Assembly: GCA_029260905.1 (NCBI GenBank)
Contig: JAJDCH010000004.1
Span: 1-44,959 of the forward strand
DNA: 44,959 nucleotides
Source: Candidatus Levyibacteriota bacterium
Lineage (GTDB): Bacteria > Patescibacteriota > Microgenomatia > Levybacterales > UBA12049
Reading direction: 5' to 3'
The notes below the pieces were generated by a model that worked only from the letters and a program-made list of their open reading frames with translations, was not told the DNA's origin and ran no database searches. Below are positions 4,972 through 41,905 of the stretch, piece after piece (within the stretch, counting starts at the first letter, position 1; every line of letters begins with the position of its first letter). The position numbers and the translations under genes are program-made.

Positions 4972-5583
4972 ATGACTACAACAATTTATCTAATCCGACA
5001 CGGCCATGTCTACAATCCCCAAAATATTATCTATGGCAGATTGCCAGGCTTTAAACTTTCCGAAGAAGGAATAAAAGAAATAGAGCAAACAGCAAGTTTT
5101 CTTGCTGACAAAAACATCAAGGCTATTTATTCAAGCCCTGTTTATCGAACTAGACAATCAGCAAAAATAATAAAAGAAAAATTAAAACTTAATGAAATTA
5201 AAATCTCCCAAGAGCTCTTTGAAGTAAAAACCTCACTAGATGGCCTAAGCGCTTCTGAGTTTGATGTAGTAAACACTGACTACTACTCGCAACCAATTAT
5301 TAAAAAGGGGGATGAAACAATTGAAAAAGTTGCCAAGAGAATGCAAAAATCTATCTCAAAAATACTTGGCAAACATAAAGGTCAATCCGTTGCTGCTTTC
5401 TCACACGGTGATCCTATTATGATTCTCTGGGCAGCACTTGAAAAAAGACCACTTGAATTCTTCTCAATAAGAAATCACGACCATGTTAAGTACCTCAATA
5501 CAGCCGGAGTGCTAAAAATTACAAAATCAGAAAAAGAGGAATTAAGAGTTGGAATTGCTTTTGTTCCTGTGATAAAGCATTAA
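4972..5583 (+). CDS. Histidine phosphatase (phosphoglycerate mutase-like) family protein
   Basis: The 203-residue protein starts with the catalytic motif of the branch-1 histidine phosphatases, LIRHGHV (residues 7-13), in which His is phosphorylated. The second catalytic His is in FSHGDPI near residue 143. YSSPVYRTRQSA (about 54-65) is the usual arginine-containing segment. The family includes cofactor-dependent phosphoglycerate mutases, alpha-ribazole phosphatases and broad sugar phosphatases. The substrate cannot be told from sequence alone; the NPQNIIYGRLPGFKLSEEG stretch resembles the phosphatase rather than the mutase branch. The gene converges on the LysM hydrolase gene with a 4-base overlap. 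Confidence 0.88.
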   Translation: MTTTIYLIRHGHVYNPQNIIYGRLPGFKLSEEGIKEIEQTASFLADKNIKAIYSSPVYRTRQSAKIIKEKLKLNEIKISQELFEVKTSLDGLSASEFDVVNTDYYSQPIIKKGDETIEKVAKRMQKSISKILGKHKGQSVAAFSHGDPIMILWAALEKRPLEFFSIRNHDHVKYLNTAGVLKITKSEKEELRVGIAFVPVIKH

Positions 5584-6299
5584 ATAATGCCTTGTGCTTC
5601 CATTTTTCTTGCGCAACCAGGAAATTGAGTAAAAATACTTGACCTCTGAAGAAGCCTTTGAACAGCATCAATCTGAACCTCAATAGGTGCCAAATCTGCT
5701 CTTTCATAACCTGTTCCCATACTCTTCCATGTTCCATAAGAGAACTGGAAAGCACCATAGTAACCATTACCAGTATTTTTTGCTGGATCCATACCAGCCT
5801 CACAGTTTCCAAGATAGGTAATCTGGTCCATTGTAAGAGACTGTGGTGAATTTGTATTAGCAATAGGCGCTTTAACCGGTATTTCAGCAACTACATTCTC
5901 AACAACCTGTACTGTTGGAACAGGGGCTATCTTTTCCTGTTTTACAGCAAGTATCGCATCTTTTGATGCTTGATCAAGCCTTGCTTGAAGTTCTGGTTTA
6001 AGAGCCTCGGGCTCATCTGAACCTCCCTCTTTAAGTTTAAGAAGCTGGTTTGCTTCAATCAACTCAGGATTTTCAATCCAATCATTATCATTCCACAAAG
6101 TTGTCCAGAAGTCCTCAGCTCCATATTGCAAATTTGCAATAGATGTAAGAGATTCTCCAGGTTGCACAATATGACCACTAAGCAGACTCTCTGGCATTAC
6201 CCTTGAGAACTGTACTGCTGGCGACACCGATTGATGCGTTGGATAAGCTGTTGGTAGGATTGCTGATGCAAGAACACCTGCAATTAAAAAATTAATCAT
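5580..6299 (-). CDS. Secreted LysM plus Rpf-like/transglycosylase-like wall hydrolase
   Basis: The 239-residue protein has a short N-terminal hydrophobic export segment (1-17). A LysM peptidoglycan-binding domain (42-90, HIVQPGESLTSIANLQYG) is followed by a Pro/Val-rich linker and a C-terminal transglycosylase-like domain of the resuscitation-promoting factor type (158-231). GNCEAGMDPAKNTGNGYYGA contains the likely catalytic Glu167, and the fold's W, G and C residues follow. It probably cleaves peptidoglycan glycan strands during growth or cell contact. The gene has a consensus sigma-70 promoter upstream (6353-6381) and, unlike most genes here, a leader of about 47 bases holding an inverted repeat (6312-6339). 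Confidence 0.88.
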   Translation of the reverse strand: MINFLIAGVLASAILPTAYPTHQSVSPAVQFSRVMPESLLSGHIVQPGESLTSIANLQYGAEDFWTTLWNDNDWIENPELIEANQLLKLKEGGSDEPEALKPELQARLDQASKDAILAVKQEKIAPVPTVQVVENVVAEIPVKAPIANTNSPQSLTMDQITYLGNCEAGMDPAKNTGNGYYGAFQFSYGTWKSMGTGYERADLAPIEVQIDAVQRLLQRSSIFTQFPGCARKMEAQGII

Positions 6300-6602: not shown

Positions 6603-6609
6603 AAAAATG

Positions 6610-6682
6610 TGGACGATGCAGGATTCGAACCCGCGACATCTTCAGTGTAAATGAAGCGCTCTACCAACTGAGCTAATCGTCC
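6610..6682 (-). tRNA. tRNA-Val (anticodon TAC)
   Basis: Minus strand cloverleaf with acceptor GGACGAT/ATCGTCC, anticodon loop TTTACAC and the standard T-loop TTCGAAT. Length 73. It lies 7 bases upstream of tRNA-Phe in the same orientation and is probably processed from the same transcript. Confidence 0.95.
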
Positions 6683-6808
6683 ATAGCTAATCGTGCAGTA
6701 TGCACTATTATAATTGATATTTATACTATGATCAAGGACAAGGCAAATACATAAACCACCTTTTGTAAAAAATAATTTTCAGAAGCCAGGACAAAAAAAA
6801 CTAAATGA

Positions 6809-8284
6809 TCACAAAACAAAATTATCAACATCTTTGGGGATCCAATATTTAATTTTATTCTCTGGCAAATGCATAATCCTATTGGGGCTCAGACCTTGTA
6901 CAAATTCTTCTGTATGGCTTACAAAAAGCATCGCTCCTTTATAGGTTTTTAGTGCCTCAAGAATTGTTCTTTGAGAGAGCATGTCAAGATACGTTGTCGG
7001 CTCATCAAGAATCAATAAATTATAATTCTGAAGCATTAACATGGCTATAGAGAGTCTTGTCTTCTCGCCTCCTGAAAGGGTTCCGATTTTTTGGTAAAGC
7101 TTGGGGCGAGGGAAATTAAATGAAGCAAAAATGGGTAAAATCTGAGTCAATGGCAAGCCACACTTTTCTTCAATCATTTCCATAATCGTTTTACTCATGT
7201 CAAAAGTCTCAAATTCTTGTGAATAGTATCCTATGTGAAGGGCTGGATCTTTGACAATTTCGCCACTGTCTGGTTGCAGTCGACTCATGAGTATTTTGAT
7301 AAATGTACTCTTTCCAGCACCGTTTGGACCATACAAAGCAATTCTCTCCCCACGCCCAATGGAAAGTGAAACATCTGAAAAAATTTTACTATCCTCAAAA
7401 CTTATAGATAAATCTTTTACTTGAAGCGGAATCTCGCTTGTGTGTTTTGGTTCTGGCAAGCTAAATTTAATCCCGCGGATTTCCTTTGGCAATTCTGGCA
7501 ATTTGTCTTTAATCCTATCAATCCTATTCTGCACACTTGCGCGAGCTCTTGCGCCTTTTTCAGTTGACCCGCTCGCCATCTTCAGCAAGCTTTTTTTCAT
7601 TCGATTTATTTCTTTTTGATCATTTTCAAATTTTTTCAAAAGCATAGCGTCATTGTTACTTTTTAGCTTTATATACTTAGAGTAATTTCCTTTATATTCC
7701 TCGATCTTCTTGGTAGTCGGATTTACTGCAAGAATCTTGTCTATATGCTGATCAAGCAGATTAATATCGTGAGAAATGACAATCAAGGTATGTGGATATT
7801 CACTTAGAAATTCCATAATAAAACGTTTTCCCTCTGTATCAAGAAAGTTTGTTGGCTCATCAAGAAGCAATATGTCAGGCTCTTGAATTATTGCTCGAAG
7901 TAAAGCAAGTTTGGTTCTTTGTCCACCACTAAGTATCTTAGGCAAAGTATTTAAATCTTCGTTAACCTCAAGTGATTCAAGCATTACCATCAGCTCCCAT
8001 GCCTCTTTTTTCATTTCAGGATCAATATAGCTCTGGATATCAACTGCCGACTCAAGTAGGGGATCATGCTTAACTTCTTGTGGGACATAACCGATCTTTC
8101 CTTGAACCTGTAATTTACCTGTGGATGCTTCATCTTCCCCTAGAAGCAACTTAAATAGCGTGGATTTCCCAGCACCATTTGGTCCGACAAGCCCAATTAG
8201 TTCTCCCTTTGCAACTGAAAAGCTGGAATCTACATAAACTTCCTGACGCGAATAACCATAAGAAATATTTTTAGCAACAATCAT
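6809..8284 (-). CDS. ABC-F family ATPase (Uup/EttA/Vga-like, two ABC domains)
   Basis: There are two ATP-binding cassettes and no membrane segment. The first has Walker A GPNGAGKST, signature LSGGQRTKLALL and Walker B ILLLDEPTNFLD. The second has GPNGAGKST, LSGGEKTRLSIAML and LLILDEPTTYLD. A basic linker rich in K/R (K-K-S-L-L-K-M-A-S-G-S-T) joins them, as in ABC-F proteins that bind the ribosomal E site and act in translation control or antibiotic protection. I place the start at ATG 8284, giving I-V-A-K-N-I-S-Y-G-Y; a TTG seven codons upstream (8305) is less likely. No drug-resistance subtype can be called. Confidence 0.92.
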   Translation of the reverse strand: MIVAKNISYGYSRQEVYVDSSFSVAKGELIGLVGPNGAGKSTLFKLLLGEDEASTGKLQVQGKIGYVPQEVKHDPLLESAVDIQSYIDPEMKKEAWELMVMLESLEVNEDLNTLPKILSGGQRTKLALLRAIIQEPDILLLDEPTNFLDTEGKRFIMEFLSEYPHTLIVISHDINLLDQHIDKILAVNPTTKKIEEYKGNYSKYIKLKSNNDAMLLKKFENDQKEINRMKKSLLKMASGSTEKGARARASVQNRIDRIKDKLPELPKEIRGIKFSLPEPKHTSEIPLQVKDLSISFEDSKIFSDVSLSIGRGERIALYGPNGAGKSTFIKILMSRLQPDSGEIVKDPALHIGYYSQEFETFDMSKTIMEMIEEKCGLPLTQILPIFASFNFPRPKLYQKIGTLSGGEKTRLSIAMLMLQNYNLLILDEPTTYLDMLSQRTILEALKTYKGAMLFVSHTEEFVQGLSPNRIMHLPENKIKYWIPKDVDNFVL

Positions 8285-8467
8285 AATTTTGAGGGAAAGA
8301 ATCAATTGAATTCGCTTTTTGAAGCTAGTTTACCTAAAACAAAAACTTTTCTTTCAACACCACCAATTATAACAGATTTTATATTTTCAAAAAAATTAAG
8401 ACCATGCTCTTGACAGACTATTAAATAAGAAATTAGTAAGAAAACAGTATGTGATTAGAAAATAATA

Positions 8468-8495
8468 TTGACAAATCAACATTATTTGTTATATA
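8468..8495 (+). promoter_or_regulatory. Promoter of the Cys-repeat/Gly-rich secreted protein
   Basis: TTGACA (8468-8473), 16-base spacer, then TATATT (8490-8495) preceded by TGt, an extended -10. The ATG at 8506 follows 10 bases later, so the leader is only a few bases. Confidence 0.7.
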
Positions 8496-8505
8496 TTCTG
8501 GAAAC

Positions 8506-9321
8506 ATGAAACACTTTCTATTTATAATATCTTTTTTTGTCGCAATATTTTTCTTCGGATTAAGTGCTGAAAAAGCTGAAGCATATACCTGTGGAAGCAA
8601 TAGCAACTGCCATGGTGAAGAACTTACAAAATGCGGAAGCAATAGTAGGTGTAGTGGACCAAATCTTACCAATTGTGGCAGTAACAGCACCTGTTCAGGT
8701 CCCAAATTAGAAAAGTGCGGAAGTAGTAGTACATGCAGCGGTCAGGCTCTAAACAAATGTGGAAGCAATAGCAACTGCATGATAAAGTCTTCAAACCACA
8801 ACAACTCAAGCTACCATTCAAAAACAATACAACGCGAACAAGAAAAAGAACAAAGAAGAATTGAAAGGGAAAAACAAAAAGTGGAGAGAGAAAGAAAAAG
8901 AGCAGAGAGAAAAGCTGAAAGCGAAAAAAGGAAAAAGGAAAGACTTGCTAAAAGACGAGAAAATTGTCTAGAAAAAGGAAAGTATTGGAATGGTTCTAAA
9001 AACAGATGCGAAAGACACTCATCAAATAATAACACAAGCTACAGAGAAAGAAATGACAATAACTGCTATTGGTTCCATTGCCCGGACAATTCAAAAAACG
9101 GCTACGACCGTGATTACGATAGAAATAATAATGGAGGGTACAGCTATAATGATGGCAGAGATGGCGGTCGCGGAGGAGACGGAGGTAATGGTGGCAACGG
9201 AGGTAATGGTGGCAACGGTGGGAATGGTGGCAACGGAGGCAATGGCGGTAATGGTGGCAACGGAGGCAATGGCGGTAATGGGGGTAATGCTTACTTCGTA
9301 GACTATAGATTCCACAAATAA
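8506..9321 (+). CDS. Secreted multi-domain protein: Cys repeats, charged helix, (GGN)12 tail
   Basis: I do not recognise this 271-residue protein as a known family. A signal peptide (1-26, ending A-E-A) is followed by four and a half 14-residue repeats (29-91) of the form C-G-S-N-S-x-C-S-G-x-x-L-x-K, with two cysteines each. Residues 106-152 are almost all K/R/E/Q and should form a long charged helix. CLEKGKYWNGSKNRC (154-168) and CYWFHC (187-192) give two more cysteine pairs, fourteen cysteines in all. Residues 226-261 are exactly twelve GGN triplets, a pattern known from polyglycine-II helix bundles in some phage adhesins and antifreeze proteins. The last ten residues are aromatic and basic. 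A surface adhesin or matrix protein is an inference. Confidence 0.85.
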   Translation: MKHFLFIISFFVAIFFFGLSAEKAEAYTCGSNSNCHGEELTKCGSNSRCSGPNLTNCGSNSTCSGPKLEKCGSSSTCSGQALNKCGSNSNCMIKSSNHNNSSYHSKTIQREQEKEQRRIEREKQKVERERKRAERKAESEKRKKERLAKRRENCLEKGKYWNGSKNRCERHSSNNNTSYRERNDNNCYWFHCPDNSKNGYDRDYDRNNNGGYSYNDGRDGGRGGDGGNGGNGGNGGNGGNGGNGGNGGNGGNGGNGGNGGNAYFVDYRFHK

Positions 9322-9419
9322 AAATCTCTTAAAACTTCTCGATCTATTTTAAAATTAAGTACATTTGCTGATGTAGCGCCCCTTAACGTGGTTAAAAATG
9401 AGGTAAACGACTTAGCCGG

Positions 9420-9502
9420 TGCGGACGAGAGGAGTTGAACCTCCACACCCTTTCGGGCACTACCACCTCAAGGTAGCGTGTATACCATTTCACCACGTCC
9501 GC
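9420..9502 (-). tRNA. tRNA-Leu (anticodon GAG)
   Basis: Minus strand class II tRNA with acceptor GCGGACG/CGTCCGC, anticodon stem-loop CTACC-TTGAGGT-GGTAG and a long variable arm GTGCCCGAAAGGGTGT. Length 83, discriminator A, no encoded CCA. Confidence 0.95.
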
Positions 9503-9762: not shown

Positions 9763-10326
9763 ATGAGGAAGTTCTTATTTGCCCTGACTTTCTTATCAGT
9801 AGTACCATTTGGATTTCTACTGGTTCTTATCATCTCACTCTCCATTTACAATCAAAATCCACAAATTTCATACCAGAGAAACGTAGCCTACGCAGCACTT
9901 CCCACAGCTCAAAATGCCATATCAGCAACAATCATTGAAGATGAAGGTAAAGTAGAGAGAATAAGGCAGTTTATGGCCAAATATAAATCAGGGCTTGAGC
10001 CATACGCAGCAGATGTAGTTGCTAGTGCTGAGCAGTACGGACTTGATGAGAGACTGATTGTTGCTATTGCTATGAAAGAATCAACTCTTTGCAAAACAAT
10101 ACCAGAAGGATCGCACAACTGTTGGGGATTTGGAATATATGGGGGGAAAGTAACTACATTTTCTGACTATAGAGAGGGTATATATATAGTATCCAAGGCC
10201 CTGGGAACTCGCTACAAAGACAAACATGGACTAATTACACCTGAAGACATCATGTCTATGTACACGCCATCTAGTGACGGATCCTGGGCTCGTGATGTAA
10301 ACCATTTCATGGAACAAATGAAATAG
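9763..10326 (+). CDS. Membrane-anchored lysozyme/transglycosylase-like protein
   Basis: A strong hydrophobic N-terminal segment (residues 3-28) anchors or exports the protein, followed by a lysozyme-fold domain (about 65-187). RLIVAIAMKESTLCK (98-112) has the transglycosylase-like catalytic Glu106. NCWGFGIYGG (119-128) and DYREGIYIVSKAL fit the glucosaminidase/SLT-like fold. It probably acts on peptidoglycan. I chose ATG 9763 because the hydrophobic segment starts there and a TATAAA (9750-9755) ends 7 bases before it. An in-frame ATG at 9712 would add 17 polar residues before the signal. Confidence 0.75.
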   Translation: MRKFLFALTFLSVVPFGFLLVLIISLSIYNQNPQISYQRNVAYAALPTAQNAISATIIEDEGKVERIRQFMAKYKSGLEPYAADVVASAEQYGLDERLIVAIAMKESTLCKTIPEGSHNCWGFGIYGGKVTTFSDYREGIYIVSKALGTRYKDKHGLITPEDIMSMYTPSSDGSWARDVNHFMEQMK

Positions 10327-41113: not shown

Positions 41114-41818
41114 ATGACAAGTTTTATAATCTGCTCAACGGATAAGAAAAAGCGCGTTGAATTTGCAAAGGATTTTTTTGAGAAAAAAAATATTGATAGA
41201 TTTGATATAACCCTTATTCAAAAAGAAGAAGATTCCAAAAATCTGCAAACAATTGGTGTACAAGATGTCAAAAAAATACAGGGAAAAATTTTTCTCAAAC
41301 CACTTCACTCCAAAGAAAAAGCTGTGATCATAGAAGATGCAGATCTTTTGACAATTGAAGCGCAAAACGCGCTTCTCAAGGCCCTTGAAGAGCCGCCAGC
41401 CAACACCTACATCATGCTTGGCGCAGAATCTTCAGAAAAACTTCTACCAACCCTACTTTCACGCTGTCAAATGATAAAACTTAAAACGCCAATTCCTTTT
41501 CTTAGCAAAGAAGAACTAGAAGAATTAACAGATTTTGCTTCAAATCTAAACAAAATGGCAATAGGGGACAGGCTCAAAAAAGCAGAAATCCTTGCCAAAA
41601 ATAAAGATGAAGCTATAATCTGGATTGAAAAACTAATTCTTGTTTTACGCGAACAAATGCTGGTAAATTTTTCCCACAAAAAAAATGCAGCAATGGAACA
41701 ATTAGACAATGGAACAATTAGACAACTCCAATCCCTTCATACACTTCTCAAAACAACCAATGTCAACCCCAGATTCGCCATCGAAAACACGCTGCTCTCC
41801 TTAATTCCTAATTCCTAA
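41114..41818 (+). CDS. holB: DNA polymerase III delta-prime-like clamp-loader subunit
   Basis: The 234-residue AAA+ like protein matches delta-prime in KAVIIEDADLLTIEAQNALL, then KALEEPP and LLPTLLSRCQMIKLK (the S-R-C motif). There is no Walker A lysine, as expected for delta-prime, which does not hydrolyse ATP. It is shorter than E. coli HolB (334 residues). A 16-base tandem duplication (41691-41706/41707-41722) lies in its coding region, and its last codons and stop fall inside the start of the TTCCTAA array. Confidence 0.86.
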   Translation: MTSFIICSTDKKKRVEFAKDFFEKKNIDRFDITLIQKEEDSKNLQTIGVQDVKKIQGKIFLKPLHSKEKAVIIEDADLLTIEAQNALLKALEEPPANTYIMLGAESSEKLLPTLLSRCQMIKLKTPIPFLSKEELEELTDFASNLNKMAIGDRLKKAEILAKNKDEAIIWIEKLILVLREQMLVNFSHKKNAAMEQLDNGTIRQLQSLHTLLKTTNVNPRFAIENTLLSLIPNS

Positions 41819-41905
41819 TTCCTAATTCCTAATTCCTAATTCCTAATTCCTAATTCCTAATTCCTAATTCCTAATTCCTAATTCCTAATTCCTAATTCCT
41901 AATTC
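41805..41905 (+). repeat. Tandem heptamer array (TTCCTAA)14
   Basis: Fourteen perfect head-to-tail copies of TTCCTAA (41805-41902) plus three bases. The first copies include the last codons of holB; the array fills the gap to rarA. It is absent from coding regions elsewhere in the window except as degenerate relatives (18481, 28442). Confidence 0.98.

Follow-up and report, generated by a model that had tools for sequence, protein, structure and literature searches.

A predicted disulfide-laddered beta-roll in an orphan exported protein of a Candidatus Levyibacteriota bacterium

YadA-type adhesins of the BpaC subtype carry beta-roll heads in which the glycine at coil position 8 is completely conserved (PMC9543794). 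In the beetle antifreeze protein TmAFP, each 12-residue coil is closed by an internal C2-C8 bond, giving the spacing C-x5-C (PMC8038014). Polyglycine-II (PGII) domains, among them that of phage S16 gp38 (PMC6851490), consist of short helices, each about 3-5 triplets long, with turns between them (PMC10216338, PMC6851490). Two further precedents concern surface proteins. Peribacteria encode cysteine-rich exported giants that the authors linked to attachment (PMC4736985), and a Gracilibacterium encodes a surface protein of PTD repeats with synonymous-only variation, for which the authors suggested a role in adhesion (PMC6851277).

Here we describe an exported protein that combines elements reminiscent of these systems, encoded within a window of 44,959 nt (contig JAJDCH010000004.1, assembly GCA_029260905.1) from Candidatus Levyibacteriota bacterium. 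The host is a small bacterium and is probably episymbiotic. The features of the gene, ORF 8506-9321, and of its surroundings are collected in Table 1. Reading of the sequence gives the ORF an ATG start, a TAA stop and 271 residues. Its anatomy is solid and bears out the earlier note, which had described an exported protein with three repeat types (14-residue cysteine units, a charged helix and (GGN)12) and 14 cysteines; its coordinates for the ORF were right. The signal peptide, MKHFLFIISFFVAIFFFGLSAEKAEA, was judged by eye and is likely cut before YTC. Cysteines occur at residues 29, 35, 43, 49, 57, 63, 71, 77, 85, 91, 154, 168, 187 and 192. Those of the N-terminal domain pair by position as 29/35, 43/49, 57/63, 71/77 and 85/91 and belong to five C-G-S-N-S-x-C units that recur every 14 residues, beginning at residues 29, 43, 57, 71 and 85; these make up four complete coils of 14 residues and a half-coil that closes the domain. 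A Ser/Asn linker separates these repeats from the charged helix, and the C-terminal cysteines (C154, C168, C187 and C192) follow with spacings C-x13-C and C-x4-C.

Table 1. Features of ORF 8506-9321 and its surroundings, in coordinates of the window.
Feature	Position	Strand	Basis or remark
tRNA-Val(tac), left border of variable slot	6609..6682	-	comparison with relatives
ABC-F ATPase, divergent neighbour	6809..8305	-	ribosomal protection-like; NF000355 above cut-off
Promoter: TTGACA 8468-8473, 16-nt spacer, TGT-TATATA 8490-8495	8468..8495	+	sequence; position rule
Orphan exported protein, CDS	8506..9321	+	271 aa, stop codon included; codon usage native
Signal peptide, residues 1-26, likely SPase I site AEA/YT	8506..8583	+	read by eye from sequence
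Predicted cysteine-laddered beta-roll, residues 27-95	8584..8790	+	repeat analysis and AlphaFold2
Predicted charged helix, residues 103-157	8812..8976	+	AlphaFold2; composition count
C-terminal Cys motif, residues 154-192	8965..9081	+	sequence; AlphaFold2 low to medium confidence
N/D/Y/G-rich spacer, residues 193-225	9082..9180	+	pLDDT <50 nearly throughout
(GGN)12, residues 226-261	9181..9288	+	exactly 12 triplets; units differ only synonymously
Aromatic C-terminal tail AYFVDYRFHK	9289..9318	+	sequence
tRNA-Leu(gag), right border of variable slot	9418..9502	-	comparison with relatives

The repetition is more than chance, and the changes within the repeats are almost all synonymous. Self-matches in the repeat region numbered 34 at a lag of 14 and 12 at a lag of 7, with at most 6 at any other lag from 5 to 19. 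A three-repeat Cys/Gly pattern matched 3 times within the window and 0 times in 100 shuffles of it. Between units, the GGN triplets gave a pS of 0.79 and a pN of 0, and the CGSNSxC cores gave a pS of about 1.07 and a pN of 0.09. Silent change close to saturation, in a protein sequence that stays fixed, points to repeats that are old and under selection at the level of the protein, and selection that keeps the repeats implies that ORF 8506-9321 is a real gene. An orphan gene carrying tandem repeats might also have arisen recently through DNA slippage, without selected function. We give this origin very little credence, because the units are near saturation for synonymous divergence with almost no amino-acid change, codon usage fits that of the neighbouring genes, and the promoter is well placed.

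The placement of the promoter follows a rule that holds across the window. A TATAAT-like hexamer starts 10-20 nt before the start codon in 23 of 32 window genes, whereas a control interval gave such hexamers for 3 of 32, and the promoter of ORF 8506-9321 obeys this rule. Promoter-like matches as such were no commoner in the scanned 1.4-kb stretch than in its shuffles. The promoter previously proposed, TTGACA-16-TATATT, holds up in position but not in spacing: a 16-nt spacer leads to TATATA, whereas TATATT, an alternative -10 element at 8492-8497, needs 18 nt. The mRNA is predicted to be leaderless or near-leaderless, and mRNAs of this kind look like the norm for this genome. A Shine-Dalgarno sequence precedes only 2 of 39 window genes.

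Given the regular 14-residue period, we considered how the N-terminal domain might fold. AlphaFold2, run without an alignment on residues 27-96 alone, returned a mean pLDDT of 93.2 and a pTM of 0.77, and in the full-length run the block means of the repeat region were pLDDT 86-95. The model shows a small beta-solenoid in which every 14-residue coil has two short strands, and residues 27-95 are predicted with good confidence to form a beta-roll of 14 residues per coil. Searching PDB sequences with the repeat region (phmmer) recovered BpaC and, weakly, a Hep_Hag head. An ungapped alignment of the 14-mer to the left-handed beta-roll repeats of BpaC scored 112, which stood out both from shuffles (z 9.1) and from column-permuted repeats that keep the periodicity (z 4.4, P 0.0005). 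Numbered as in PMC9543794, the coil has the form G1 S2 N3 S4 x5 C6 S7 G8 x x L11 x x C14. None of the four full coils lacks G8, in keeping with the 14-residue beta-roll repeat of YadA-type adhesins. Foldseek searches of the PDB and of viral models yielded no significant match, which is weak evidence either way for a solenoid of 70 residues. We read the domain as YadA-head-like, with a disulfide in each coil that would do the work of trimer packing, although the likeness to BpaC may reflect convergence on a low-complexity G/S/N/T pattern.

The cysteines are spaced C-x5-C in 5 of 5 units. The genome encodes VKOR (E 7e-45) and two Thioredoxin_4/DsbA-like proteins, which makes extracellular disulfides plausible; DsbB was not found in the genome. 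A signal peptide, recognised by eye, and an oxidising system are what would be expected of an exported disulfide protein. A disulfide ladder with one intracoil bond per coil is likely, and we infer its pairing. The earlier note had suggested a small disulfide-stapled solenoid and had proposed structure prediction of the repeats, which yielded a confident beta-solenoid for residues 27-96. Together with the in-register match to BpaC, the C-x5-C spacing and the VKOR/DsbA-like proteins, this makes the suggestion well supported as a prediction.

A C-x5-C motif in every coil is also what TmAFP has (PMC8038014), and GGX triplets occur in PGII proteins such as sfAFP, with its five or six PGII helices (PMC10216338). 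The protein could accordingly be ice-binding, joining a TmAFP-like disulfide solenoid to a snow-flea-like glycine-rich part. This seems highly improbable to us. The repeats are not 12-residue TCTxSxNCxxAx coils, the period being 14 with no TCT, and in place of a TCT rank the strands present K/N/T-C-G and N/R/T-C-S/H/M. Moreover, alignment to TmAFP scored no better than shuffles (z about 1), 1ezg was not among the phmmer hits of the repeat region (the identity of the TmAFP query was confirmed), and the GGN run lacks turns.

Searches for relatives were carried out at several taxonomic depths. Searches of 100 related genomes, of 82 from the order and 374 from the class, and of phages, plasmids and viral contigs yielded no homologue. 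Neither did a GTDB-wide scan, but this was sensitive only to close relatives, and homologues beyond the phylum may exist. A six-cysteine pattern run against 380 genomes of the phylum revealed no relative among the matches listed, with the DNA read by eye, and a cysteine-pattern scan of viral contigs gave only low-complexity and wrong-frame readings among the matches listed. The pattern (GGN)4 was present in 0 of 99 relatives. Pfam, NCBIfam and PHROGs offered no meaningful family for the product; their weak matches lay mainly on the charged helix and were rejected as compositional, as were plasmid-borne YadA-like, P-type ATPase and peptidase-G2 matches (E 0.01 to 1). Genome matches at E 0.006-0.007 were also discarded, one being an unrelated ORF that has neither repeats nor the Cys/Gly motif and the other an out-of-frame reading with three stops. 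The search for relatives that had been called for beforehand thus turned up neither a known family of other function nor a homologue. Judging from sequence, the product looks lineage-specific and one of a kind within the searched genomes.

Beyond the beta-roll, the full-length AlphaFold2 model scored mostly pLDDT 82-96 over residues 103-157, which are predicted with good confidence to form one long charged helix. Like single alpha-helix (ER/K) spacers, it is about 50 residues long, 71% E/K/R (residues 106-153) and confidently helical. Unlike them, it is strongly basic, with a net charge of +10, its i+4 salt-bridge pairs are not enriched over shuffles (11 observed against 10.3 expected), and it bears a partial heptad stripe, I119-V126-A133-L147. 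Almost everything after residue 193 fell below pLDDT 50, and the GGN run (226-261), at about 40, is predicted to be unfolded. This run shares GGX triplets with the polyglycine-II sandwiches of S16 gp38, PE_PGRS domains and snow flea AFP, but it is a single unbroken stretch of 12 triplets with no turn segments, where such sandwiches have several short, turn-joined, layered helices; it is a poor candidate for this class. A polyglycine-II bundle, as initially suggested, is unsupported as the fold of this chain, and the structure prediction proposed for the GGN part gave no folded bundle. The run could act between molecules.

We next considered the genomic setting. ORF 8506-9321 and an ABC-F gene, whose true start may lie further in than 8305, occupy a slot at 6683-9417 within a tRNA cluster. 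In a same-genus genome representing a sister species, tRNA-Val(tac) and tRNA-Leu(gag) are about 107 nt apart and the slot is empty, and other family members have different genes between tRNA-Val and tRNA-Leu or their neighbours. Of 40 related genomes, only 6 have a highly similar ABC-F protein, with other neighbours there, and in two family members it is 73-74% identical. Since the slot is empty in the same-genus genome and filled otherwise elsewhere, and the ABC-F gene is patchy, both genes look like accessory cargo; the codon usage of ORF 8506-9321 is native. A small, exported, cysteine-rich and basic protein in such a slot, beside an accessory ABC-F gene, might be a released effector or competition factor. 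We consider this improbable, as the protein has no toxin signature, the slot contains no immunity-like partner gene, the repeats look structural, and the codon usage is native.

Several other observations concern the neighbourhood. With names taken from the sequence only, the slot holds LAGLIDADG-like ORFs in two relatives and a zeta/AAA-like fragment with a CopG-like ORF in another, and at 228-2468 of the window an ORF seemingly carries a membrane/sensor-like part at its N terminus, fused to a trehalose-phosphate-synthase-like glycosyltransferase. The neighbours at 5580-6299 and 9763-10323 resemble peptidoglycan-acting proteins and are kept in relatives without ORF 8506-9321. The latter is a glucosaminidase-like exported protein with one copy here; the relatives examined have two tandem copies ahead of a trigger-factor-like gene. 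A perfect 7-bp tandem repeat, TAATTCC, spans 41802-41905 in about 15 copies and is mostly intergenic.

We tentatively favour a Sec-exported, lineage-specific structural or adhesive protein that presents a robust binding head, carried by a short rod, at or near the cell surface, a reading to which we assign somewhat less than an even chance. Once the signal peptide is cleaved off, residues 27-95 would wind into the beta-roll, with two short strands per coil, and VKOR and the DsbA-like enzymes would close C29-C35, C43-C49, C57-C63, C71-C77 and C85-C91. The resulting covalent ladder would hold the roll, replacing the trimer packing of YadA-type heads. The basic helix would serve as a spacer. As we saw neither a membrane anchor nor a sortase anchor, the helix may also attach to anionic polymers of the wall. 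The remaining cysteines (154, 168, 187 and 192) would hold together a small looped module. The GGN tail would not fold into a bundle but would be flexible, cohesive or self-associating. Held at or near the cell surface, the head would adhere to another cell or to matrix. The missing homologue and the absence of a significant Foldseek match count against this explanation as a whole, and its adhesive part is further weakened by our finding no anchor, receptor-binding domain, adhesion operon or host-contact gene. By analogy, the Peribacteria and Gracilibacterium precedents fit an adhesive role. The host-contact adhesin raised as speculation in the earlier note would thus far be a reasonable guess.

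The same parts might instead build a secreted structural protein of the cell envelope or matrix, in which the cysteine ladder would confer protease resistance, the helix would bind wall polymers, and the GGN tail would self-associate into a coat. No binding domain was recognised, the helix is basic (+10), and the two neighbours resemble peptidoglycan-acting proteins, all of which would suit an envelope protein, even though those neighbours persist where ORF 8506-9321 is missing. However, nothing ties the product to the wall directly, and its absence from all relatives searched implies that it is not a core envelope part. We regard an envelope or matrix protein as unlikely, though deserving of some weight.

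If the ladder is real, the favoured structural or adhesive protein would show how a beta-roll of the YadA kind could be stabilised within one chain. In a tiny bacterium equipped with VKOR and DsbA-like proteins, it would have converged on what beetle antifreeze proteins do, and it would offer a compact disulfide scaffold for protein design. It would likewise supply a testable candidate for contact at the surface, in a group for which few attachment proteins are known.

When placed in context of known systems, the protein shares with the YadA-type head of subtype BpaC (PDB 7o23) a 14-residue coil, two short strands per coil, an in-register G-S-N-S-x-[A/C]-x-G motif, and the order of a head followed by a long helix. 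It departs from that head in having cysteines at positions 6 and 14 and only five coils. Unlike YadA-type adhesins, it has no YadA anchor (no Pfam family matched the full protein at E up to 1), which rules out a trimeric autotransporter. The lineage of the host is not known to have an outer membrane. The helix has only 7 hydrophobic residues in 48 and hence shows no sign of trimerisation. With TmAFP and DhbAFP (PDB 1ezg), the protein has in common a small, exported, cysteine-rich solenoid and a C-x5-C in every coil, consistent with one intracoil disulfide; it differs in its 14 rather than 12 residues per coil, its lack of TCT ice-binding ranks, and its extra helix and GGN parts. The Peribacteria and Gracilibacterium proteins resemble it in being exported, in being cysteine-rich or made of tripeptide repeats and, in the PTD case, in synonymous-only variation. 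Compared by description only, it is much smaller than the Peribacteria giants and has a different repeat from the Gracilibacterium protein. It is possible, albeit doubtful, that these features together define an undescribed bacterial solenoid: a monomeric surface adhesin with 14-residue coils like those of left-handed beta-rolls, a disulfide in each coil in place of YadA-type trimer packing, a charged rod, and a GGN tail acting between molecules.
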